Shown here one piece after another: positions 7,421-23,307 of a stretch of 46,852 nt of DNA. Position 1 is the stretch's first letter. Each line of letters starts with the position of its first letter. Source of the stretch: Glaciihabitans sp. (GTDB lineage Bacteria > Actinomycetota > Actinomycetes > Actinomycetales > Microbacteriaceae); the NCBI GenBank assembly GCA_025463465.1, contig JAODAO010000081.1, positions 1 through 46,852 on the forward strand. Reading direction: 5' to 3'. Position numbers and translations under genes: made by a program. The notes under the pieces are model-generated. The model ran no database searches. It saw only the letters and a list, made by a program, of their open reading frames with translations, and was not told the DNA's origin.

Positions 7421-9868
<2,448 letters not shown>

Positions 9869-12403: not shown

Positions 12404-14452
12404 ATGCCAGTTAGAGACCCTCTGCAGAATCTCGGATTCACCTCCACGCGTAGCGGAGGGGAACTGAGGGTCTGGTCCGAGCACGCCACCGGTATGGAGG
12501 TGTGTGTGTTTTCCGACCGCGACCCCGCCTGGGTTGGCACCATCCTGCCTATGACGCGCGAGGCGTCCGGCGTGTGGGTGTGCGAGTCGCCGCTGCTGGT
12601 ACCCGGTGTCACCTACGCGATCCGGGCATCCGGCCCCGAGGGACCCACCCACCATTTTAACCCCGCCCGCAACCTGATCGACCCGTACTCGCGCGGACTT
12701 GCCCGCACCTCCACCGGGGACTGGCGCTCCGTCATCCAGGACAACACCTTCGACTGGGGTGGGGTCGGCAAACCCAATGTGCCGCTTGATCACTCCGTCC
12801 TCTACGAGGCGCACGTGCGTGGCCTCACCAGGATGAACCCGGACGTGCCGGAAGAGTTGCGCGGCACCTACGCGGGGCTCGCGCACCCGAGCACGATCAA
12901 CTATTTGAAGGAACTCGGCGTTACAACGGTGCAGCTGCTGCCCATCCACCAGTCGGTGAGTGAGCAGCGCCTGATCAAGCAGGGCCTTGTCAACTACTGG
13001 GGCTACAACACCCTCAACTTCTTCACCCCACAATCGGGTTACGCGTCCCGCCGCGCCCAGCAGGGTGGCACCGGCGCCGTGCTGCAGGAGTTCAAAGGCA
13101 TGGTGAAGTTGCTGCACGAGGCGGGCCTCGAAGTCATACTGGACGTGGTGTACAATCACACCGCCGAGGAGGGCCCGATGGGGCCAACAACCTCGCTGCG
13201 TGGGCTCGACAACGCGTCGTACTACCGGAACATGCCAGACGGCGACTACATCGACGTCACCGGCTGCGGCAACACCATCGATTTCTCCCAGCCTGCCGCG
13301 CAGCGCCTTGTCATCGATTCGCTGCGGTACTGGGCAAACGACGTACAGATCGACGGGTTCCGTTTTGACCTCGCCGCCACTCTTGGCCGGGACCGCAACG
13401 TCGAATTCGACCCGCAGCATCCCCTGCTGCTGGCAATCCTGGAGGACCCGCAGCTGCAGGGCGTCAAGATGATCGCCGAACCCTGGGACGTGGGAATGGG
13501 AGGGTGGCAGGTCGGCAACTTTCCCACCGGGTTTATGGAATGGAACGACGGTTATCGTGACCGCGCCAGGGATTTCTGGCTCACCGACATCGCCGCCGCC
13601 CGCCACAACGGGGGCGCCAACCAGGGCATCGGCGGTTTCGCCCGTCGCCTGGCCGGCAGCGCCCACGTGTTCTCCCACGAACGTGGGCCGCTCGCCTCCG
13701 TCAACTTCATCACGGCGCACGACGGTTTTACGATGGCCGACCTCACCGCATACAACCAGAAGCACAACCTGGGCAACGGCGAGAACAACCGGGACGGCTC
13801 CGACAACAACCACTCCTTCAACCACGGTGTTGAGGGGCCAACAACCTCCGTCGCCATCCTGTCCGCGCGGCGCAAGGCGATCCGCAACATGCTGGGAACC
13901 CTGCTGTTGTCGACCGGGGTTCCGATGCTGACGGCGGGCGACGAGTACGGGCGGAGCCAACGGGGCAACAACAACGCCTACTGCCAGGACTCCGAGTTGA
14001 CGTGGCTGGCGTGGACGGAGCGTGAGCCGTGGCAGATCGAACTGTGGAAGGTTGCGCGGGAGCTGATGCGCCTGCGGCGGGAGAACCCGGCGCTGCGCCC
14101 GGTTCGTTTCGGACGCTTCGGCGAAACGACCCCGTCGGCGAACCAGATGGACTGGTACAACACCGAGGGCCTGTCGATGAGCGACGAGGACTGGAACTCC
14201 CCCACCGCGAGGACCCTGCAGTACCTGGCGGCATCCACCCCGGAGGTTGAGGACTTCAACCGCATCCTGATGCTGGTGCACGGCCTCGAGGACGACATCA
14301 CCCTGACCCTGCCGGAGCACGAGGGTGTGAAGCTCTACACGATGCTGTGGGACTCGGCCAGCGACAGCACCCCCGCCGAGAGCTCGGAGCACCTGCCCGG
14401 CACCGAGGTCACGATGTCGGGCACCTCGATGATGCTGCTCCGCGCCGACTGA
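12404..14452 (+). CDS. glgX: Glycogen debranching enzyme GlgX (isoamylase type)
   Basis: The protein has 682 residues with the ATG at 12404. An N-terminal CBM48 domain (about 10-110) is followed by a GH13 catalytic barrel with DVVYNHTAEEG, the nucleophile Asp322 in DGFRFDLAA, the acid/base Glu359 in IAEPWDVG, and TAHDGFTMADL, then a C-terminal beta domain. The isoamylase-type signature NGENNRDGSDNNHSFN follows the barrel. GlgX cleaves alpha-1,6 branches left after phosphorolysis and so works with GlgP (23357-25912). A longer frame starting at 12329 would overlap the divergent desulfurase and is not supported. The start appears leaderless. It converges with the PaaK-like gene, with 40 bases between the stops and no clear terminator. 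Confidence 0.95.
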   Translation: MPVRDPLQNLGFTSTRSGGELRVWSEHATGMEVCVFSDRDPAWVGTILPMTREASGVWVCESPLLVPGVTYAIRASGPEGPTHHFNPARNLIDPYSRGLARTSTGDWRSVIQDNTFDWGGVGKPNVPLDHSVLYEAHVRGLTRMNPDVPEELRGTYAGLAHPSTINYLKELGVTTVQLLPIHQSVSEQRLIKQGLVNYWGYNTLNFFTPQSGYASRRAQQGGTGAVLQEFKGMVKLLHEAGLEVILDVVYNHTAEEGPMGPTTSLRGLDNASYYRNMPDGDYIDVTGCGNTIDFSQPAAQRLVIDSLRYWANDVQIDGFRFDLAATLGRDRNVEFDPQHPLLLAILEDPQLQGVKMIAEPWDVGMGGWQVGNFPTGFMEWNDGYRDRARDFWLTDIAAARHNGGANQGIGGFARRLAGSAHVFSHERGPLASVNFITAHDGFTMADLTAYNQKHNLGNGENNRDGSDNNHSFNHGVEGPTTSVAILSARRKAIRNMLGTLLLSTGVPMLTAGDEYGRSQRGNNNAYCQDSELTWLAWTEREPWQIELWKVARELMRLRRENPALRPVRFGRFGETTPSANQMDWYNTEGLSMSDEDWNSPTARTLQYLAASTPEVEDFNRILMLVHGLEDDITLTLPEHEGVKLYTMLWDSASDSTPAESSEHLPGTEVTMSGTSMMLLRAD

Positions 14453-14492
14453 GGCGAGGAACACGGGAACCCCGGCTGCGAACCCGTCGCGG

Positions 14493-15917
14493 TCAGCCCG
14501 TGCTGGCGTCGGAGCGGTAGCGGCGCGGTTTGCCCTCCCCCAGGTCGGACAGGTGGGCGACCACGGTGACATCCACCTGGCGGCCGAGTAGCAGCCCGAG
14601 GCGTTCGGCCACCGTGTCCGCGCCCCCGACGACCGTTGCGGTCACCGTTCCGTCTGAGGCCTGAACGACCGACCAGCCGAAGCAGCCCTCCGCCTGCAGG
14701 TACTGGGTCAGGTCGACGCTGGGCACCGCGGTGCCATCAGCGGCGACGAAGTCCGTCGCCGCTCGCCCCTCGAGGTCGGTGATGGCCGGCCGGCCGGCTA
14801 CCTCGATGAGCCGCCCGAAGTCGCTTGTTCGGTAGCGCACCAGCGGCAGCAGCGGGTTCTCACCGGCGGTGACGACGATCTCCCCGCGCTCCCCCGGCGC
14901 GACGGTGTTGCCCGCGTCATCGAGGATCTCAACGTGGACCCGGCGGTCGAGGATCACAAACGGGCCGCCGTCGACACTCGCCGCGACGGGGCGGGTCTCC
15001 CTCAGCCCGTAGATGTCGATGACGGGGCAGCCGTAGGCGGCGACGAGGGCCTGCCGGAGGGCGTCGCTCAGTTCCATCGCGCCGCAAAACAAGGCGAGAG
15101 GGCGCAGCCCGGCGACGAGCTCGGGGGCGAGCAACTCGGCCAGGCTCGACGGGTTTCCGGTGAACACCTGCGGCTGCTGGTCGAGCAGGAACGCCGTGCG
15201 CTGCCCAGGGCGAACCCATTGGCTCGGGTGCAGGTTCAGCCGCGCCATGGTGGCCTGCCCGAACCCGCTGATCACGGAGGTGTAGGTAAACGCCTGCCGC
15301 TGGTGCACGATGTAGGCCAGCGCCATCCGGTTCGGGTCGGGTCGCCACGACACACCCTGCGCGGCAACGAGGGAGCGCAGCAGGGTAAAGGTGCGGGCGA
15401 CTTCCTCGACGTGGTCGGGAATTTGCAGGGCGTTTCCCGTAGTGCCGGAGCTCGAACCGGTGATCATGCCGGTCAGGTCGGCGTCCAGCGGCACAAACGC
15501 CGAGACGTCGTCGATGAGGTCATCCCGGCTGATGGGCGGGAAGTCCTCCAGTGTGCCCAGGTGTTCGGCGAACCGGCGGTAGGCGGGCAGCCGCCGGGCG
15601 ACCGCCAGGTGATCCTGCATCCAGCCATCCACCGGAAGCGGCACGCTGGCTCGGTGCACCGCGTCCGGCGCCAGCCGGTCTCCGGCGCGGTGGATCCACG
15701 GCGGCGCCAGCGGATGGTCGGTGAGCGCGCGCAACCGCGCCGCGCCGGAGGGCTCGAGCGATGGCCAGCGTTCCTCATCGGTCAGCGCCACCGCCGAGTT
15801 GGGTTCGTACTCCGGCAGGGCAAGCGGGTCGTGCACGTCGGGGCCGACGGGAGCCTGCATCGGAGTGTTGCTGGGCTGGTCGGCGCCCGAGTCCGGGGCT
15901 GTCGTCTGGTCACTCAT
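14493..15917 (-). CDS. PaaK-like adenylate-forming enzyme in a MoxR/VWA operon
   Basis: The 474-residue protein resembles the phenylacetate-CoA ligase (PaaK) branch of adenylating enzymes. Visible motifs: a Ser/Thr/Gly phosphate loop at 154-161 (GSSSGTTG), YGLRE at 303-307 near the adenine site, RTSDFGR at 363-369 with the ribose-binding Asp, and GKPRRYRS at 462-469 with a candidate catalytic Lys in the small C-terminal domain. All core elements are present, so it probably adenylates a carboxylate; the substrate and the acceptor are unknown. Residues 1-50 are a Pro/Ser-rich tail. The ATG overlaps the upstream gene by eight bases, making this the last gene of the operon. No carrier-protein or CoA-pathway gene is nearby, so a role in ordinary catabolism is not favoured. 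Confidence 0.75.
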   Translation of the reverse strand: MSDQTTAPDSGADQPSNTPMQAPVGPDVHDPLALPEYEPNSAVALTDEERWPSLEPSGAARLRALTDHPLAPPWIHRAGDRLAPDAVHRASVPLPVDGWMQDHLAVARRLPAYRRFAEHLGTLEDFPPISRDDLIDDVSAFVPLDADLTGMITGSSSGTTGNALQIPDHVEEVARTFTLLRSLVAAQGVSWRPDPNRMALAYIVHQRQAFTYTSVISGFGQATMARLNLHPSQWVRPGQRTAFLLDQQPQVFTGNPSSLAELLAPELVAGLRPLALFCGAMELSDALRQALVAAYGCPVIDIYGLRETRPVAASVDGGPFVILDRRVHVEILDDAGNTVAPGERGEIVVTAGENPLLPLVRYRTSDFGRLIEVAGRPAITDLEGRAATDFVAADGTAVPSVDLTQYLQAEGCFGWSVVQASDGTVTATVVGGADTVAERLGLLLGRQVDVTVVAHLSDLGEGKPRRYRSDASTG

Positions 15918-16719
15918 GGCTGTACCTGGCCGAGGCTTCGCGGGCCCTGGCGGCCTGCAGGCGCCGGTTCACGTCGAGCCGGTGCTCGTGTTCTGCGAAC
16001 GCGGCCAGCAGGGCGGCGTCCTGCTGCAGCGAATCGCGCATGGCGAGGGTTCCCCGGGCGGCGGCGACGTCCTCGCCGGCCGGCAGGTAACCGAGCCAGA
16101 GCAGGAAGGTGCGGGCTGCCTCGTCCCGCCGGTCGGCGTCCCTGATCCATTCCGCGGGCTCCACAACGGCGGCGAGCCGGAACGCCATGGCTGCGAGCGC
16201 CCGGTCGGCGAACCGGGTACCCAGGTCAACGCTAAAGGGCCCCTGCGTTTCCACACTGGCCCACAGCCAGAGGGCGATGGCGATGCCCCGTCGCGGGGCT
16301 GGCATGTCCAGTTTTCGGGCGACCTGGGTGACGGTGAGGACTCGGCCTCCGCCGGCCGAGGTGGGTGAGGCTGCGAGGACATGTCCGGCGAGCGCGCTCA
16401 CCTGCACGCGCTCGTCGAGGAACGTTGTGGGAACCTGCGACAGGCGTGTGGTGATCTCAGCCACGGATGGTCCTGGCACGCATTTGGCCCAGGCCTGTTC
16501 GACGTCGTCGGCACGTTCCAGCCAGTGCGCGAGGATCCTCTCCTTCGTTGATGGTGGCACGGTGGCGTTATCCGCGGCGCCAGGGGGATGCTGCGCGGTG
16601 CGCTGCGTTGTTGCCGGCGGAGCTGCCGCCGGCGGTGGGACTGGTGGCGCCGGCAGGGCAGGGCTCGCCGACGGCCGTGTTGTGCCGCGCCCGAAAAAAC
16701 GCCCAAGAAGGTCAACCAC
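15910..16719 (-). CDS. Unknown protein, 269 aa, in the MoxR/VWA operon
   Basis: The family is not recognised. It starts with GTG at 16719, preceded by AAGGAG at five bases, which decides the start. Residues 1-13 are basic and hydrophobic (MVDLLGRFFGRG), 14-60 form a Pro/Ala/Thr-rich linker, and 61-269 appear mainly helical with a WIRDADRRDEAARTFLLWLG stretch about two thirds along and a charged C-terminus. No transmembrane helix or catalytic motif is seen. It overlaps the VWA gene upstream and the PaaK-like gene downstream by eight bases each. The overlaps and the strong ribosome binding site suggest stoichiometric expression with its neighbours, as an adaptor or subunit. Confidence 0.75.
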   Translation of the reverse strand: MVDLLGRFFGRGTTRPSASPALPAPPVPPPAAAPPATTQRTAQHPPGAADNATVPPSTKERILAHWLERADDVEQAWAKCVPGPSVAEITTRLSQVPTTFLDERVQVSALAGHVLAASPTSAGGGRVLTVTQVARKLDMPAPRRGIAIALWLWASVETQGPFSVDLGTRFADRALAAMAFRLAAVVEPAEWIRDADRRDEAARTFLLWLGYLPAGEDVAAARGTLAMRDSLQQDAALLAAFAEHEHRLDVNRRLQAARAREASARYSHE

Positions 16720-18718
16720 GGTATCTCCTTACTCCGGTCGACGTGTGCTGCCGCAGTAGCCGTTCGGCCAGTTCTGCGCACGCGGCGGGGGCATCGGCCA
16801 TCGTGTTGATGTACTCGACGGTATACCCGGCGGCCGCTGCGGGGCCGGCAATGGAATGGCCGCGATCCTGCAGGATGAGGGTCCCGGTGTCCAACAGCCG
16901 CCTCACCCGGGCGGCGACATGCGCGAACTGGTCCTGCCCCTGCCCGAACATTGACGCGAGGCCTTCGTCGGAGAGCACAACCACGTGGCGGCGGATGACG
17001 GTTGCACCGGTGGATGCTGAGCGGTAGCGGTCGCCGTACAGGTCGAGGGGAAAAGTGGTGCCGCCGCCGAAGTACGTGGTCAGCAACCGCAGGGCCTCGA
17101 CGGCCTTGCGGGTGAAACCGTCCCCGCCCGCCACCTGTCCGGTACCCGAGAACGAGGTCACCCGCACCCGCCCGCCACCCCGAAGCACCGACAGGATCAG
17201 GATGGTGCCGGCCAGCACGGCAGGGGATTCGGCCAACGGGGAGCGCATCGACCCGGAGGAGTCGATGTACAGGTCGAGGTCGATGCTGGTGCGCCGGGTC
17301 GGCGGTGGGTCGTCGAGGCTGTCGCGGCGGCTGGTGGTCACACCGGGGATGACCACGGCACTCCTGGCGAGGGATGCCGACCAGTCGATATCGGTGAGGT
17401 CGTCGCCGAGGTCCCAGTCCCCCAGCGGCCCGGGGATCTCGTCCTCCGCGCCGGTGGCGGTGGGCGCCACCTGCTGCATGGGGCGAATCCAGCGACGGGC
17501 CTGGGTTTGGTACCACGCGGCGATCACGTCGTTCGCGTCGCTCGCCGAGTACAGCGCGATCGTCGCAGCGAGGCCGTACCCCTGCCCGAGACCGCCGCCC
17601 GCTTGCGGGATCGAGCCCGCCGGCTGTACTTCGACGGCAACCGGTTGGCCGGCCGCGCCGAGGGCCGCCAGCCGTGCCTTGGTGATGGCGGGATGTTCCG
17701 GCGCCTCGGTGAGGCGCCCATCCCCCAGCACCGCGACCATTTCGGCCGCCGTCGCCGGGGCGACATCCACCTCCCCTCCGCAGTACACGTGCCCGCGCCG
17801 CTGCGTGCGGCGCGGCTGGCTCAGGTAGGGCGCGAAGATCATCCCGAAGCGCAGCGCCCCACTCACCGGATCCTGTCCGAAGGTCTTCACCGTCTCCGCG
17901 AGCAGCGACGCGTCCAGCATCGGATTGCTCGCGCCGAGTCCGTCGAATTCGTGCTGCGCCTCCTCGACAGCCCGCGCGATGGCGGCCTTCGTTGCCTCGT
18001 TACCGCGGGCGACAACGGGGCCACGTGTTCTCCCCTGCGCGGAACCCTCTGAACCCTCGGAACCCACTGAACCCACTGAACCCACCAAAGGATCCTGTGC
18101 CACCGCGGGCGGGTCGGCGGGGCAGAGCGTACCGGGTGGCAGCCCCCAGAGGATCTCGTAGCCGCGGTAAATCACCCACCACATCGGGCCGGGGACCGAC
18201 GCGGCGGACAGCACCCGCCACAGCCGAATCATCTGCGGCTCTTGGGGGCTCGCCTGGCCGGAACCACCGTCCACTCCGTTGATGGCCCCCGCGTTCGAGG
18301 TGATAACGATCCGACGTCGCTGCTGTTCGGCGACCCGCACGTTGATCAGCATGTCCGACCACAGGTTGGACAGCGTATGCGCCGTGTTGGCCGGGTTGCC
18401 GGTGGCAGACGGATCGGTCGCCTGGATCGCCCGCGCCATCTGGTGCACGATCTTGAGGCTGGTGATGCGGGTGGATGGCGAAAGGACGTGGTGGCCGATT
18501 TCGTGGGCGAAAACGGATTCGAGGAAACGACCGACACCGCTGCGGCGAATTTCGCCGAGGTCGACGGTGACCTGGGGTGGGAAGGTGAACCAGGCGAAGG
18601 CACCCTCGTGCGAGCCGGAGGTGAGGATCGGGTCGTGAACGCTCACTCCCCAGAGGTCCTGAGCAGCGTCCCAGTCGCGGCGTTGCGCCTCGTCGAGGGG
18701 CCGCAGGCCGCGGCTCAT
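16712..18718 (-). CDS. Fusion of a zincin-like putative metallopeptidase domain and a VWA domain
   Basis: The protein has 668 residues. The N-terminal part (about 1-220) carries HEIGHH at 72-77, an HExxH zinc site, and SDMLIN at 121-126, which may supply a third ligand as in the putative metallopeptidase domain often joined to VWA-like domains (DUF2201 type). The middle has a Gly/Ser-rich segment encoded by five 9-bp tandem repeats (18041-18085). The C-terminal VWA domain (about 481-668) has an intact MIDAS: Asp486-Ser488-Ser490 in DSSGS, Thr554/555 in FGGGTTF and Asp584 in LSDEG. VWA proteins commonly pair with MoxR ATPases as substrate adaptors, and the MoxR gene lies two genes upstream. 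Whether the zincin half is an active protease is not known. Confidence 0.85.
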   Translation of the reverse strand: MSRGLRPLDEAQRRDWDAAQDLWGVSVHDPILTSGSHEGAFAWFTFPPQVTVDLGEIRRSGVGRFLESVFAHEIGHHVLSPSTRITSLKIVHQMARAIQATDPSATGNPANTAHTLSNLWSDMLINVRVAEQQRRRIVITSNAGAINGVDGGSGQASPQEPQMIRLWRVLSAASVPGPMWWVIYRGYEILWGLPPGTLCPADPPAVAQDPLVGSVGSVGSEGSEGSAQGRTRGPVVARGNEATKAAIARAVEEAQHEFDGLGASNPMLDASLLAETVKTFGQDPVSGALRFGMIFAPYLSQPRRTQRRGHVYCGGEVDVAPATAAEMVAVLGDGRLTEAPEHPAITKARLAALGAAGQPVAVEVQPAGSIPQAGGGLGQGYGLAATIALYSASDANDVIAAWYQTQARRWIRPMQQVAPTATGAEDEIPGPLGDWDLGDDLTDIDWSASLARSAVVIPGVTTSRRDSLDDPPPTRRTSIDLDLYIDSSGSMRSPLAESPAVLAGTILILSVLRGGGRVRVTSFSGTGQVAGGDGFTRKAVEALRLLTTYFGGGTTFPLDLYGDRYRSASTGATVIRRHVVVLSDEGLASMFGQGQDQFAHVAARVRRLLDTGTLILQDRGHSIAGPAAAAGYTVEYINTMADAPAACAELAERLLRQHTSTGVRRYRG
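18041..18085. repeat. Five tandem copies of a 9-bp unit inside the VWA-protein gene
   Basis: Five 9-bp units, from ggaaccctc to tgaacccac, follow one another; the last two are identical and the others differ at one to three positions. On the coding strand each unit encodes Gly-Ser-Val or Gly-Ser-Glu, giving a flexible linker between the two halves of the protein. The copy number could vary among strains without breaking the frame. Confidence 0.85.
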
Positions 18719-19473
18719 AACACGGACCCTGCCGCTGGTGGCACCGTAACGCTCAGCGTCGCGACGTAGTCAAATTCGGACGTGCTGAGGCGAGCGCGGA
18801 TACTGCCGTCCTCCACCGGCCCCAATGCCTCCATGCTGAACGTGCTGCTGGTGCTGGTGGATGCGGAATCCGGAGGGCCAGCTGGATCCGATCCGAGGGG
18901 CGTCAGTACCGACCCGAAGAGATCGCATTCCAGGCGCCAGTTTTCGGCGCCGGCGACAACGTGGAACACTCCGGGCTCGGCGTCAGCGGTGACGCCGGTC
19001 GGCGGGGCGATCCATGGCCCGTCCAGGCCGGCGAAGCCGCCGAGGGTGGCGACCGTGTTCTCCCCCTCGGCGAAAAGCGGCCAGCCGAAACGCGATCCCT
19101 GTTGCAGCGCGCAGAAGGGTGCCACCTCGTCGGGATCGAGGCCGAGTGCTGCTGCCAGAGCCGCCAGCGGCGGAACGGGCTCCGCCAGGTGAATGTCGAG
19201 GCGACGCAGGGCATCGGTGCGCAGCTCGATTGTGCCGGCCCGCCAGGCGGCGATTGCCCCGAGGCTGAGCAGCAGAGCATGCTGCACCGGCCCGGTGAGA
19301 ACTGCGCTGGTCGCCGCGCCGAAGAAGTGTCGGTACCGGGCGGCGGCGTCGGCGCCGTGCATCGTGTGCACGTTGTGGGCCGCCGCCTCGACGTTGACGC
19401 CCAGTCCCTCGGGGACTGCCGCGACGTCGAGGACGAGGTCGCGGTTCACCGTGTGCGAGGGTGGCTGTCTCAC
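18715..19473 (-). CDS. Unknown protein, 252 aa, in the MoxR/VWA operon
   Basis: The family is not recognised. The GTG start at 19473 overlaps the MoxR stop as GTGA, and the stop overlaps the ATG of the VWA gene as ATGA, so it is tightly coupled to both. The N-terminal half (about 30-125) is Ala-rich and probably helical, with a conserved-looking VEAAAHNVHTMHGADAA segment containing three His residues. The C-terminal half is rich in short beta strands and ends in VATLSVTVPPAAG. No membrane helix, signal peptide or known catalytic motif is visible. Its place between ATPase and VWA genes suggests a structural or adaptor subunit. It could be a divergent member of domains known from MoxR-VWA systems, which only profile searches could show. 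Confidence 0.72.
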   Translation of the reverse strand: MRQPPSHTVNRDLVLDVAAVPEGLGVNVEAAAHNVHTMHGADAAARYRHFFGAATSAVLTGPVQHALLLSLGAIAAWRAGTIELRTDALRRLDIHLAEPVPPLAALAAALGLDPDEVAPFCALQQGSRFGWPLFAEGENTVATLGGFAGLDGPWIAPPTGVTADAEPGVFHVVAGAENWRLECDLFGSVLTPLGSDPAGPPDSASTSTSSTFSMEALGPVEDGSIRARLSTSEFDYVATLSVTVPPAAGSVL

Positions 19474-21050
19474 CGGGCGGAGCCGAGCCAGGCGACGTAG
19501 TTCGTGTAACGCTGGTGCAGGTATTTGAGGGCGAGCAGGTCGTCGAAGTGTCGGCCGTAGAGTTTGCCCTGCCGGGAGATGAAGGCGATCTGCGATTCGA
19601 CCGCGGTGAGGCGTTGTGATGCCTGGATGCCGGTGACACCCTCGAGGCCGCGGGCGAGGAGGGCGAGTTCATCGGCGACGGGGTCGCTGCCGCCGAGGCC
19701 GAGCGCACTGAACTGGCGGCGGGATTCGGCGAACAGGTCGGCGAGCCAGCTGACCGAGTCGAAGGCCAGTTCCCGGTCCGCCCCCACATCGAAGCGCGGG
19801 TGTTGTGTGTTCGGCAGGAGTTTGCCGCGGAGGGAGAAGGGCAGCACCGCCGCCACATCATCGAGGCTGACCTCCGGCATCCCCCGAAAGAATGCCATCG
19901 CCTTGGCGTAACGGATCAGGGTTTGCAGGGAGCGCACGGAGAGGCTGTTTGTGGTTTGCGACCCGATGTCGACGTTGAGATCGGCGCCACTGTTCTCGTC
20001 GATGACCTCGGGGACCTGGCCGCCGCCGGTTGTGACGGTGTCCTTTGTGCGGTACTCGAACCGGCGACCGCCGTGCTGGACGAACTCGAAATGCCCGGCG
20101 AAGAACTCGAGCTGGCGGCGCACGTGCTGCGGCAGGGGGACTGCGCGAATGGCGGCTTCCAGCGCGCGTTGCTCGTCCGTTCCGAAAACGATCTCGGCGG
20201 GCACATGATCTTCCGGGCGTTCGCCGGCTTCCACCCGGGTGACGAGCTCGTCGAAGAACCTGTTGTTGAAGCCCTGGGCAGCGACGGTGACGTCCATCCG
20301 GTCGCGCAGGGCCTGGATGACGGGGAAGGTGCCGCCGCCGGCGTCATCGTTCGCGGTGAAGAACCAGCTTTCCACGCCGGAGGGTGGGGTGGTCGAGTGC
20401 GCCTGGTCGTGGGATTCGACGTAGCCTTCCGCCACCATCGTCAGCAACGCCGACTGCGTTTTGGTGGGGATGCGGTTGTATTCGTCAACAATTTTGACGG
20501 GCTGGGTCAGCCAGCTGCGCCAGGCGATGGTGATGTCGGCGAGGCTGGCGGCGTTGACCAGGTCGCGCGGCAGTGGCATTCCCACCAGGTCGCTGACGGT
20601 GACCTGTGGCTGGCCCTGCTGGACGTGTCGGCGCACGTCCTTCGCGGGCGACCCGGACAGCACCCCCATCAGGATTGCCAGGGTGGTTTTTCCCCGGCCG
20701 GGGCCGCCAACCAGGAGGCAGCGCCCACCAACGGCGAAGGTCAGCAGCGGCAGCAGGACGTTCGAGGAATAGGACTGGTCCGTCGGCAGCTGCAGTTCCG
20801 CGCCGGCATCCCCGAGGGCGAAGGTGATGGGGGCGCCGGTGGAGAACTCGACGTCGTAGAAGGGCGAGATGACCGCCTGGTTGACCAGCCAGTAGTAGGC
20901 CTGGCGGAGCTTCTCGTCGAGCGGCACGGTGCTGTCGGGTGCCGGAGCGTCGGAGAACAGCTCTTCCGCCGTGATCTGCCCGGTTACCGCTGCCGCCTTG
21001 GCGCGGGTGGGTGATTCGGAAACCTTCTGCCAGCGATTGCCCAGATCCAT
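19470..21050 (-). CDS. MoxR-family AAA+ ATPase
   Basis: The protein has 526 residues from the ATG at 21050; a 30-residue upstream extension in frame would overlap nadR and was rejected. An N-terminal region (1-100) precedes the AAA+ core: Walker A GGPGRGKT at 115-122, Walker B VKIVDE at 185-190, sensor 1 FFTAND at 230-235, and a following LRDRMDV stretch with a candidate arginine finger. The C-terminal 200 residues hold a helical lid and extra helices. MoxR ATPases remodel partner proteins, often inserting cofactors or activating complexes together with a VWA protein (as in CbbQ/CbbO, NorQ/NorD and the ChlI/ChlD pair). It is the first gene of the five-gene module and starts only 10 bases after the nadR stop. 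Confidence 0.9.
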   Translation of the reverse strand: MDLGNRWQKVSESPTRAKAAAVTGQITAEELFSDAPAPDSTVPLDEKLRQAYYWLVNQAVISPFYDVEFSTGAPITFALGDAGAELQLPTDQSYSSNVLLPLLTFAVGGRCLLVGGPGRGKTTLAILMGVLSGSPAKDVRRHVQQGQPQVTVSDLVGMPLPRDLVNAASLADITIAWRSWLTQPVKIVDEYNRIPTKTQSALLTMVAEGYVESHDQAHSTTPPSGVESWFFTANDDAGGGTFPVIQALRDRMDVTVAAQGFNNRFFDELVTRVEAGERPEDHVPAEIVFGTDEQRALEAAIRAVPLPQHVRRQLEFFAGHFEFVQHGGRRFEYRTKDTVTTGGGQVPEVIDENSGADLNVDIGSQTTNSLSVRSLQTLIRYAKAMAFFRGMPEVSLDDVAAVLPFSLRGKLLPNTQHPRFDVGADRELAFDSVSWLADLFAESRRQFSALGLGGSDPVADELALLARGLEGVTGIQASQRLTAVESQIAFISRQGKLYGRHFDDLLALKYLHQRYTNYVAWLGSAR

Positions 21051-21060
21051 GGTCGGCAGC

Positions 21061-22104
21061 CTATCGGGCCGTTGGAGTCTTCGTTGGCACGGTTCTGGCG
21101 ACCCGCACCACACCGTTGATCGCGGCGGAGGCCTGCGCAATTCTCTCGGCCACCAACCCGGAGACTTCGATCCAGGGCACGTCCTGGCTGGCCAACGCTA
21201 CGCGGAAGGTCGTGTGCATCTCGCCGCGGATGGCCTCGTCGATGCGGATGACGTCCTCTTCGAAGGGGATGTCATCGGCGGTGAGGATGTAGAGGGCGGG
21301 TTGGTGGGCGGCGGCCCGTTCCCACAGGGTGTTGACGCTGTCCGGCGCGTAGTGGCGCTGCCAGATTGCCGTGGTGAGGATGTCGGTGTCGCAAAACAGG
21401 AGCGGGCGGGGCACCCGGCGGGCGGCGTCCCGTTCCCACTGCAACTGGTGCTGGGCGATCAGCTCGAACTCCGGGGCGCTCCAGGTCGCGGATACCCCTC
21501 CTGCTCGCTGTTCGCTGTAGAGGCGGCCGTACTCTGGCACCCACAGCGTGTTGTATTCGGCGGCGAGCGCCGCGGCGAGCGTCGTTGTGCCGGTGGACTC
21601 GGCACCGAGCAGCACAATCCGCGGGGTCAGCCACGCCCGCGCTGCCGGGGCCAGTTCGCTCCAGTTTCGTTCAACGTCTGCCCGCACCGCGGTGCCCGAG
21701 ATGGGGTTGTCGAGTCGACCGGCGTCAACCTGAACCCATACAGCGCCGAGGCGCCTGGCAAGTTCCGCGCCGTAGCTGTCGCTGCTGAACACGGCATCGA
21801 CCGGGGAATCCAGCAGCCCGATGAACACCTCGACGTGGTCCTCCCAGGCGCTGGCCGACTCATAGTCGACGGGAGCGTCGTCAAGCGCGCTGGCGACACG
21901 GACGGTGGGATGTTCCTCGCGGACCCAGTCCGCCCGCTGCTCGAACGGGATCGACTCTCCGGTTGCGCCGAGGACTTCGACCGTCACCGACTCGCACTGG
22001 CGGACGGCCGTGCGGATGAGGTTGCTGTGGCCGCTGTGCAGCGGGTAGAACTTGCCGAGGACGAGGCCGTGGGTGAACCGGGGCCTATCGCTGGGTTTAC
22101 GCAC
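21061..22104 (-). CDS. nadR: NadR-like bifunctional NMN adenylyltransferase / nicotinamide riboside kinase
   Basis: The protein has 347 residues. The N-terminal nucleotidyltransferase half has GKFYPLHSGH at 17-26 and ISGT at 135-138, the two signature sites for ATP and NMN. The C-terminal kinase half begins with a P-loop at 167-174 (GAESTGTT), where the usual Lys of GxxxxGK[ST] is replaced by Thr. In enterobacterial NadR this position is Lys, so the kinase activity here needs checking; a similar P-loop may be common in actinobacterial relatives. There is no DNA-binding domain, unlike the E. coli protein. It overlaps pnuC by eight bases, and together they fit uptake of nicotinamide riboside and its conversion to NAD+. 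Confidence 0.88.
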   Translation of the reverse strand: MRKPSDRPRFTHGLVLGKFYPLHSGHSNLIRTAVRQCESVTVEVLGATGESIPFEQRADWVREEHPTVRVASALDDAPVDYESASAWEDHVEVFIGLLDSPVDAVFSSDSYGAELARRLGAVWVQVDAGRLDNPISGTAVRADVERNWSELAPAARAWLTPRIVLLGAESTGTTTLAAALAAEYNTLWVPEYGRLYSEQRAGGVSATWSAPEFELIAQHQLQWERDAARRVPRPLLFCDTDILTTAIWQRHYAPDSVNTLWERAAAHQPALYILTADDIPFEEDVIRIDEAIRGEMHTTFRVALASQDVPWIEVSGLVAERIAQASAAINGVVRVARTVPTKTPTAR

Positions 22105-22747
22105 CGCGGTGCCCGCTGGGGAGGAGGTCGTCGTCCGGTTGGGCCGTCGTCGGGGATTGCCCCGTGGGGACCTGCGTGTGTCGCGCCTTTTTCCATCCCA
22201 GGTAACCGATCACGCAGAACACCATAAACAGGACGTATAGCACGCCAGTGATGACAAGGCCCTTCGACAGGTACAGGCCGACGTAGGCGATGTCGACGGC
22301 GACCCAGACGAACCAGTTCTCGATCCAGCGCCGGTTCAGCATGTACTGCGCCACCAGGCTGACCGCCGTGGTGCCGGCGTCAGCGACCTCGGTGGTGGAG
22401 TCGGTGTATGAGTGCAGGGCGAAAGCGATGATGGCGGTGGCCGCAACGGCCACGAGTACCAACGGGAGGACGGCCCGGCGCGGTGTGGACACCACAAGCG
22501 CCTTGTCATCCTGCCCACGATGACGGAGCCAGCCGATCCAGCCCATCACGGCCAGCACAAGAAACACCACCTGCAGGCCAGCGTCGGCGTAGAGCGCTGC
22601 GTCGGCGAACAGGATGAAAAACACCACGTTGTTGGCGATGCCAATCGGGAAGGTCCATAGATTGCGCCGCGCCGCGAGGAGCACACACACCCCGCCCGTG
22701 ACGAACCCGAGAATTTCCGTCCAGTTCTGTACTAACCAGTCCCCCAT
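22097..22747 (-). CDS. pnuC: Nicotinamide riboside transporter PnuC
   Basis: The protein has 216 residues with about seven membrane helices. The family hallmarks are the N-terminal NWTEILGFVTGGVCVLLAAR, the central pattern WIGWLRHRG, and NWFVWVAVDIAYVGLYLSKG in the second half, where Trp and Asp residues line the substrate site. PnuC moves nicotinamide riboside by facilitated diffusion and relies on intracellular phosphorylation for trapping, which the overlapping nadR gene would provide. The C-terminal 35 residues are a polar cytoplasmic tail. It is the first gene of the seven-gene string that ends with the PaaK-like enzyme. A TAAACT box six bases before the ATG and no Shine-Dalgarno sequence suggest a leaderless transcript. 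Confidence 0.93.
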   Translation of the reverse strand: MGDWLVQNWTEILGFVTGGVCVLLAARRNLWTFPIGIANNVVFFILFADAALYADAGLQVVFLVLAVMGWIGWLRHRGQDDKALVVSTPRRAVLPLVLVAVAATAIIAFALHSYTDSTTEVADAGTTAVSLVAQYMLNRRWIENWFVWVAVDIAYVGLYLSKGLVITGVLYVLFMVFCVIGYLGWKKARHTQVPTGQSPTTAQPDDDLLPSGHRGA

Positions 22748-22812: not shown

Positions 22813-23307
22813 GTGTCGAAGAAACCAGTCCACGCCGCCGGAACACCAGCCACCGCTGTGCTGCTGGCTGCGGGGATCAACTTTATGGCTCATCCCTACG
22901 ATCACGATCCCGACAACACCAACTTTGGTCACGAGGCGGCGTCCGCCCTCGGTCTCGACCCTGAGCGGGTATTCAAAACACTCCTCGCCGACATCGACGG
23001 GCACCTGGCCGTTGCGATTGTGCCGGTCACCGGCAAACTCGACCTGCGCGCCCTCGCCGCCGTCGTTGGGGGCAAAAAGGCGGTGATGGCCGACCCAGCC
23101 GTTGCGGAACGTAAAACCGGCTACGTGGTCGGTGGGATTTCCCCGATTGGGCAGAAAACGCCGCTGGTCACGGTCCTGGACGAAACGGCCGAGATGTTCG
23201 ATTCCATCTTCGTCTCGGGTGGTCGCCGCGGCCTGGACATCGAACTGGCCCCGGCGGACCTGCTGCGGGTCACAGACGGGCGCATCGCAGCGATCGCCCG
23301 CGACTGA
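22813..23307 (+). CDS. ybaK: YbaK/EbsC-family Cys-tRNA(Pro) deacylase
   Basis: The protein has 164 residues with the family opening AGTPATAVLLAAGI, then VFKTLLADIDG, VPVTGKLDLRALA, and the conserved KKAVMADP and GYVVGGISPIGQK segments, the last forming the active-site loop around Lys and Gly residues. YbaK enzymes hydrolyse Cys-tRNA(Pro) made in error by prolyl-tRNA synthetase. The length and motif order are normal. The start is GTG at 22813, with no visible Shine-Dalgarno sequence. It diverges from pnuC with 65 bases between starts and converges with glgP. It appears to be a stand-alone housekeeping gene. Confidence 0.93.
   Translation: MSKKPVHAAGTPATAVLLAAGINFMAHPYDHDPDNTNFGHEAASALGLDPERVFKTLLADIDGHLAVAIVPVTGKLDLRALAAVVGGKKAVMADPAVAERKTGYVVGGISPIGQKTPLVTVLDETAEMFDSIFVSGGRRGLDIELAPADLLRVTDGRIAAIARD

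Follow-up and report, generated by a model that had tools for sequence, protein, structure and literature searches.

A conserved MoxR, zincin-VWA and PaaK-like gene module and its tie to NadR in Actinomycetota

Background

MoxR AAA+ ATPases and VWA proteins work as pairs in several described systems, and such a pair lies within the five-gene module of Glaciihabitans sp. that is analyzed here (assembly GCA_025463465.1, contig JAODAO010000081.1, positions 1 to 46,852; this whole stretch of 46,852 nucleotides is called the window). CbbQ/CbbO acts as an activase of Rubisco. Proteins of the DUF2201 type, which we take to be metallopeptidase-VWA proteins with a zincin-like domain N-terminal to the VWA domain and a MoxR partner, resemble the module in these respects. 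In NorQ/NorD, a MoxR hexamer drives the VWA adaptor, and the metal ion-dependent adhesion site (MIDAS) is proposed to bind the client (PMC9976466). What MoxR-VWA pairs share is that a client peptide is captured and ATP-driven remodelling follows (PMC7159879). MoxR-VWA ternary conflict systems (VMAP, iSTAND, FtsH and beta-propeller types) were described with an emphasis on multicellular prokaryotes, and a subset of the FtsH-type systems has a radical S-adenosylmethionine (SAM) effector gene (PMC7159879). VWA chaperones were also linked to ADP-ribose processing in ARG-centred systems of a different make-up (PMC9503650).

The module shares with NorQ/NorD and CbbQ/CbbO a MoxR ATPase and a C-terminal VWA domain with MIDAS residues, and perhaps the same motor-adaptor principle. 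However, it adds an N-terminal zincin-like domain, two further proteins (X and Y), an adenylate-forming enzyme and partners from nicotinamide adenine dinucleotide (NAD) salvage, and the gene cluster contains no obvious client enzyme. The ternary conflict systems likewise combine the MoxR-VWA pair with a further conserved component, but the module is also present in genera such as Microbacterium and Flavobacterium, and no variable effector was seen. As to their third component (VMAP, iSTAND, double FtsH or beta-propeller), X has no consistent Pfam match and its strands are only blade-like. The text of PMC7159879 contains none of the words PaaK, AMP-ligase and DUF2201.

No paper describing the gene set was recognised in the open-licence PMC literature, in agreement with the initial annotation of the window, which knew of no described system with this set. 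The combination of a MoxR-VWA motor, an adenylate-forming enzyme and salvage of nicotinamide riboside (NR) to NAD was not found in the literature searched. The module is real, conserved and, as far as the open-licence literature shows, undescribed. We tentatively prefer to read its five genes together with the adjoining NadR and PnuC genes as one unit, in which an ATP-driven MoxR-VWA remodelling machine with an acyl-activating arm may depend on the branch that leads from NR over nicotinamide mononucleotide (NMN) to NAD; we would put this at somewhat below an even chance.

Results and discussion

The five-gene core and its distribution

Five minus-strand genes are found at positions 14493-21050 of the window, and the ends of neighbouring genes overlap by 4, 4, 8 and 8 bases. 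The initial annotation had given this layout correctly, but it had missed two adjoining genes, NadR and PnuC (21061-22747), which belong to the same gene string. In the order of transcription the string reads PnuC-NadR-MoxR-X-zincin-VWA-Y-PaaK-like, all on the minus strand; NadR overlaps PnuC by 8 bases and ends 10 bases upstream of MoxR.

When 198 genomes of the window's order were searched, the zincin-VWA protein was observed in six (first search). The other five genomes carry PnuC, NadR, MoxR, zincin-VWA and PaaK-like genes in the same order as the window, and X and Y were recovered by profiles. For the wider search, a six-sequence profile was applied to a species-wide genome collection with candidates picked by two short VWA patterns. 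At least 106 relatives were confirmed, of which 80 were kept as loci; these 80 are not a random sample (loci and genomes are cited by our L and G numbers). They span ten named phyla (Actinomycetota, Pseudomonadota, Bacteroidota, Acidobacteriota, Chloroflexota, Planctomycetota, Verrucomicrobiota, Spirochaetota, Myxococcota and Sigynarchaeota), the Asgard phylum Sigynarchaeota being represented by one metagenome-assembled genome (MAG). A further locus comes from a Candidatus Ozemobacter MAG, which is not counted in the ten. Carriers include Janthinobacterium lividum, Flavobacterium species, Cryobacterium arcticum and Microbacterium, and the distribution across phyla is patchy. In a sample of the phylum, 16 of the 19 matches represent a weaker sister family (5 of the 16 were examined), G482 is marginal, and the module was accepted in G000 and G355 only.

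The core was counted in the 66 of 80 loci whose contig extends far enough to either side. All five families are present in 60 of these, and the order MoxR-X-VWA-Y-PaaK is kept in 59. The six incomplete loci (L073, L084, L088, L099, L121 and L124) are all labelled as MAGs. Locus L063 (Mycolicibacterium houstonense) holds all five genes in an odd order and was left out of the 59; its VWA frame lies upstream of MoxR amid other genes with only a short piece at the usual place, which is either a rearrangement or an assembly error. Over all 80 loci, including those at contig edges, MoxR was found in 76, X in 79, VWA in 80, Y in 75 and PaaK in 70. Presence counts over loci are six-frame profile matches; the gene calls come from a codon-based caller, which overlooked the VWA gene of L067 and some of the X or Y genes. 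The median intergenic gap within the core is -4 bases, and the pairwise distances of the five core proteins correlate at r 0.85-0.96 (73 loci), as is expected for a core inherited as a unit.

Because the same order recurs in 59 of 66 loci, we concluded that the gene set is found together more often than by chance. The proposal that these genes form a system is thereby borne out, and the co-occurrence check suggested with it, run over the order sample and the 80 loci, returned genes that recur together. The core shows two sub-units, MoxR-X-VWA and Y-PaaK: the first is present without Y and PaaK in L073 and L121, and the second occurs as an additional pair in L090 and L091.

The patchy distribution would also suit a conflict system, in which a MoxR-VWA threshold machine would control an effector arm that consumes NAD or modifies a target, the NAD being replenished by NR salvage. 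Ternary conflict systems built on MoxR-VWA pairs are described (PMC7159879), and a 776-aa protein encoded upstream of MoxR in one locus (L093:4610-6940) has matches to TCAD9 (ternary complex associated domain 9) and to dual-specificity phosphatase, together with a sub-threshold isochorismatase match. However, for the zincin-VWA protein none of 237 pattern matches in viral contigs was confirmed as a relative, and neither two queries against plasmids nor one against phages gave a match. The set of genes is fixed, and no hypervariable effector was seen, though no search was aimed at one. By the PADLOC-DB models the module is not a known anti-phage defence system: the five window proteins gave only GajB (0.017) and TRIP13 (0.024), both at the MoxR P-loop. 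The defence-gene scan was limited to the window. The genes that flank the module there, all named from Pfam matches, appear to serve housekeeping: LigA, MnmA, a class V aminotransferase and a GlgX-like enzyme lie on one flank, and a tRNA-editing protein, a glucan phosphorylase and GlgE on the opposite one. The conflict role raised at annotation is not supported so far, and we consider it unlikely.

NadR and PnuC accompany the core

The NadR protein of the window matches TIGR01526 over residues 11-315 and AAA_28 over residues 162-321, and is predicted to hold both the NMN adenylyltransferase and the NR kinase domain. Its score of 161.4 bits is below the TIGR01526 cut-off of 341.15, as are the scores in all 198 order genomes. 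In 47 of the 80 loci, NadR is found close to the core on the same strand (24 upstream, 23 downstream); in L081 it is on the opposite strand. In the remaining 32 genomes, searched as two groups, NadR was found elsewhere in 14 of 16 and in 8 of 16 (the second group excludes L081 and G672), which gives 70 of 80 genomes with NadR. PnuC is present in 13 of 14 stretches around a remote NadR. Among the 22 remote NadR genes, those of the MAGs G676, G683 and G691 are split or partial, and that of G591 has an internal stop. G355 of the phylum sample also has NadR.

In the window's family, the zincin-VWA marker was found in 11 of 299 genomes from five genera. NadR is present in all 11 marker genomes, compared with 3 of the 288 others (7 of 288 if four kinase-domain-only matches of about 80 bits are included). 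In this search 18 of 299 genomes pass an E-value of 1e-20; the four kinase-domain-only matches were not counted as NadR, and G787, which is partial and contains a stop, was counted as NadR without marker. NadR is adjacent to the core in 5 of the 11 genomes and remote in 6. The two remaining genomes sampled from the window's genus carry neither marker nor NadR. Thus, in the family the marker implies NadR, whereas NadR does not imply the module. In the order sample, full-length NadR (E-value of 2e-27 or better, a cut-off chosen by us) was found in 6/6 genomes with the module protein and in 9/192 others. Fisher values, which ignore kinship, are 1e-17 for the family (9e-16 with all matches), 6e-8 for the order and 0.03 for the genus of G587.

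For the VWA protein, a tree was drawn by a quick method, leaving out rows with fewer than 450 aligned residues. On its well-supported branches at least four changes are needed for NadR upstream and at least seven for NadR downstream, and therefore NadR joined or moved more than once. NadR distances follow those of the core at r 0.72 (54 loci), more weakly than the core proteins follow each other. We consider the tie of the module to NR/NAD salvage to be well supported in Actinomycetota.

Several observations weigh against reading the seven genes as one unit. NadR and PnuC function without this module in many bacteria. NadR is absent from 10 of the 80 genomes, all of them labelled as MAGs, and G672, whose largest contig covers 5.9 of 6.1 Mb, has no NadR match. 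The tie is weaker within Mycolicibacterium, the genus of G587, where NadR is present in 2 of 3 genomes versus 7 of 75. A loose threshold matches the NadR model in 132 of 198 order genomes, mostly over one domain, and it is for this reason that the contrast in the order rests on full-length matches. At the genome level, counting relied on the VWA protein as the marker in place of the full five genes, and the background frequency of NadR covers Actinomycetota samples only. Finally, the substrate of the PaaK-like enzyme is not fixed by its family, as all NCBIfam scores are far below the cut-offs.

The same data bear on two other explanations. NadR and/or PnuC may themselves be the clients, which MoxR-VWA would mature, release or regulate while the PaaK-like arm acylates or senses. 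A one-way dependence like that in the family is expected of an activase-client pair, and NadR has joined the core on either side. However, NadR and PnuC are known to need no activase elsewhere, NadR is lacking in G672 and the ten genomes mentioned above, and its distances track the core less closely than the core genes track each other; we regard this activase role as possible but rather unlikely. In the second explanation the module would be unrelated to NAD, with NadR-PnuC and the module favoured in the same niches and brought together by convenience. This would account for the 22 of 80 genomes, and the 6 of 11 in the family, whose NadR is remote from the module. It would less easily explain why NadR adjoins the core on either side, with several changes required by the tree, or why one family shows 11/11 versus 3/288 genomes. 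We consider such a shared lifestyle improbable.

Conserved sites of the MoxR, zincin-VWA and PaaK-like proteins

The coordinates of the genes and motifs are listed in Table 1. The window MoxR matches AAA_3 (E-value 4.6e-7; 30.2 bits, cut-off 27) and AAA_lid_2 (7.3e-7; 29.3 bits, cut-off 22.7) and shares 53-56 % identity with five relatives, with Walker residues invariant across the six rows. By its AAA_3-type core, Walker A and B motifs and AAA lid it is predicted to be a MoxR AAA+ ATPase.

The zincin-VWA protein of the window has no Pfam match. Among 48 VWA proteins compared, HExGHH is present in all 48, as are the zincin residues H72, E73, H76, H77, N118, D122 and N126 and the MIDAS residues D486, S488, S490 and D584, while T554 is kept in 40 and replaced by Tyr in 8. 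The protein therefore has the features of a MoxR-associated VWA protein with a putative MIDAS. Pfam matches of the relatives are weak: VWA_2 in 18/48 (best 3.7e-4) and Peptidase_M48 in 8/48 (best 0.0043), both at E-values up to 0.5. DUF2201, a type mentioned at annotation, is absent among the 10 Pfam families listed for the 48 members at an E-value of 0.5.

A sister MoxR/zincin-VWA pair was found in another part of the phylum (L153-L157; G211, G252, G493, G348 and G274). Its MoxR proteins score 92-112 bits and its VWA proteins 159-194 bits. Unlike the module, the pair has no X, Y or PaaK profile match alongside (5 of 16 such matches examined), and HExGHH is replaced, e.g. by YQLLHYALAP.

A profile of 46 PaaK-like relatives matches solved phenylacetate-CoA ligases (9s3l, 8.6e-24). 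In the motifs, which we take to be those usually named A3, A5, A7 and A10, the P-loop G158, the A5 residue E307 and the A7 residue D366 are kept in 46/46 proteins, the A7 residues Y-R-T are likewise invariant, and the A10 residue K463 is found in 40/46. The protein is thus predicted to be a PaaK-type adenylate-forming enzyme, and the adenylating activity proposed at annotation gains from the conservation of its motifs. Together, the zincin, MIDAS and adenylation residues fit working sites at the level of sequence. PaaK ligases and the DVU_1553 family share motifs A3, A5 and A7, but the module enzyme scores far under the NCBIfam cut-offs and is tied to Y and the MoxR-VWA core. Identity with the PaaK equivalog (phenylacetate-CoA ligase) was rejected (40.1 bits, cut-off 646.3). 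The best NCBIfam match is DVU_1553 (66.7 bits, cut-off 300), a family presumably set beside a molybdenum enzyme.

The DVU_1553 match is one of the points in favour of metal insertion only, in which the module would mature, in the manner of NorQ/NorD or Cox, a metalloenzyme whose gene lies elsewhere, with the PaaK-like protein as a partner of this enzyme. Metal could be bound by the zincin-like domain, and metal insertion is a typical role of MoxR-VWA pairs (PMC9976466, PMC7159879). However, no common metalloenzyme was recognised among the recurring neighbour clusters listed, which were read by eye, and NadR would be left unexplained. We find this explanation quite unlikely.

Table 1 Coordinates of genes, motifs and family matches (window positions unless a locus is given)
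Feature	Position	Strand	Evidence or remark
PaaK-type adenylate-forming enzyme (putative), 474 aa	14493..15917	-	Pfam AMP-binding 7.9e-10
Y, helical protein without named family, 269 aa	15910..16719	-	conserved family in related loci
Zincin-VWA protein, 668 aa	16712..18718	-	HEIGHH and MIDAS residues kept in relatives
X, protein without named family, 252 aa	18715..19473	-	conserved family in related loci
MoxR AAA+ ATPase (predicted), 526 aa	19470..21050	-	Pfam AAA_3 and AAA_lid_2
NadR-like NR kinase/NMN adenylyltransferase, 347 aa	21061..22104	-	TIGR01526 3.1e-47 (below cut-off), AAA_28 3.3e-30
PnuC nicotinamide-riboside transporter, 216 aa	22097..22747	-	NMN_transporter 1.8e-53; TIGR01528 1.5e-24, above cut-off
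MoxR Walker A, GGPGRGKT	20685-20708	-	
MoxR Walker B, VDE	20481-20489	-	
Zincin motif HEIGHH	18488-18505	-	
Zincin-VWA protein, NLWSDMLIN	18341-18367	-	
MIDAS DSSGS	17249-17263	-	
MIDAS Thr554	17057-17059		
MIDAS Asp584	16967-16969		
PaaK-like A3	15435-15461	-	
PaaK-like A5	14994-15011	-	
PaaK-like A7, RYRTSD	14820-14837	-	
PaaK-like A10, Lys463	14529-14531	-	
DUF4158 match in Y	L077:11768-12361		4e-5, 24 bits of 27.4
DUF4158 match in Y	L104:5684-6343		0.011
DUF4158 match in Y	L087:12603-13181		0.021

Protein families X and Y

Four different seeds of X converge on the same 76 proteins in the loci, and two seeds of Y on the same 79. X is about 330 aa in most relatives, longer than in the window (252 aa), and Y about 195 aa compared with 269 aa in the window. 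The window X has no Pfam match, and no Pfam family was found in more than one of 58 X members (best CEP104-like_TOG 0.0013, TPR_MalT 0.014 and Lactamase_B 0.047). The window Y matches only HTH_IclR (0.081), which is below the cut-off and was not taken. DUF4158 is matched below threshold in 3 of 53 Y proteins, in the same middle stretch each time (Table 1). However, the match was absent in 8 of 10 Y proteins rescanned, and we treat it as a lead and not as membership. Profile searches against the PDB gave no clear solved relative (best E-value 0.47 for X and 0.52 for Y).

Confident structure models were obtained for X and Y from L087. The X model (pLDDT 95.7) is predicted to consist of twelve helices followed by eight strands. 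Its best Foldseek E-value is 0.065, and in a second fold comparison it matched WD40-type folds (Z 8.8, rmsd 2.5, 93 aligned) with the C-terminal strands only, tied with many rows; the helical half was barely probed. The strand part may resemble beta-propeller blades, a likeness that may reflect a common arrangement only. The Y model (pLDDT 95.2) is helical with a 39-residue C-terminal helix (153-191). Its best Foldseek E-value is 0.79, and the best second match (Z 5.6, rmsd 1.0, 41 aligned) covers only the long helix, on a BAR domain. The profile and Foldseek check proposed at annotation, with the L087 models, thus returned no clear relative, and the two proteins described there as unknown have neither a consistent Pfam match nor a clear solved relative.

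Additional genes near the core

Two types of radical-SAM gene were observed. Type 1 is present in 13 loci, after VWA or before the second Y-PaaK pair, and 12 of these 13 genomes have NadR (one match partial). Type 2 is found downstream of PaaK in four MAG loci (L089, L116, L120 and L122; in tandem in three), and none of the four genomes has NadR, so that they represent 4 of the 10 genomes without it. The contrast of 12/13 versus 0/4 (Fisher 0.002) is drawn from few, mostly incomplete genomes. The first type-1 protein matched 58 NCBIfam models; the 25 listed are mostly SPASM-type radical-SAM models, all far below their cut-offs. Besides NadR, PnuC and radical SAM, the 40 recurring neighbour clusters listed, read by eye, comprise transport, dehydrogenase, regulator and clade-specific genes.

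Other genes were seen in single loci or lineages. In L147 (G672), the core is followed by radical-SAM-like and pyridoxal phosphate enzyme-like genes (12726-14554; labels read from the sequence). L090 carries a gene for an FAD-dependent oxidoreductase between X and VWA (8460-9803), and a PNPOx-like gene (14495-15133) separates its radical-SAM gene from the second Y. A gene with a PF05014 match (nucleoside 2-deoxyribosyltransferase) lies between MoxR and X in two Planctomycetota (L079:7907-8929 and L116:7918-8874, the latter just below the cut-off). The Janthinobacterium loci L085, L103, L108 and L112 share a conserved protein of about 157 aa (cluster C30) at the same place, and L080 has an NrtR-type regulator upstream of MoxR. 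In the window, a gene with a tRNA-editing domain (22813-23307, plus strand) is divergent from PnuC, within the glucan/maltosyl gene neighbourhood. Neighbours found in a single locus (fatty acid desaturase, fatty acid hydroxylase, GNAT, SnoaL and esterase) were set aside as likely due to chance.

Proposed function

The tie to NAD suggests that the client, the activated compound or a regulator belongs to NR/NAD metabolism. If the seven genes act as one unit, with a chemistry that we infer, MoxR would form a ring and the VWA protein would be its adaptor, with the MIDAS holding the client as in NorQ/NorD. X may be a scaffold that recognises the client, and the zincin-like domain would hold a metal and clip or metallate the client. 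Y would dock the PaaK-like enzyme, which would adenylate a carboxylate and pass on the acyl group. The client or activated compound would come from NR/NAD metabolism, which PnuC and NadR would supply; the radical-SAM enzyme of some lineages could alter this client or compound further. The system foreseen in the initial annotation is retained, with no support so far for a conflict role and no DUF2201 match; the clue from NR/NAD salvage and the radical-SAM gene of some lineages had not been anticipated.

A more specific form of the proposal, which we consider improbable, is that a pyridine nucleotide derived from PnuC/NadR would be activated, altered or coupled to a carrier by the PaaK-like enzyme and Y (with radical SAM in some lineages), and inserted into a client by MoxR, X and the zincin-VWA protein, perhaps with a metal. 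The assembly of the nickel-pincer nucleotide follows a comparable logic. If true, the installation of a pyridine nucleotide would represent a new cofactor or protein modification.

A fixed gene order over ten phyla, two protein families without a consistent Pfam name and the tie to NAD salvage are together a strong sign of a real function, and the tie to NadR makes the function of the module testable.

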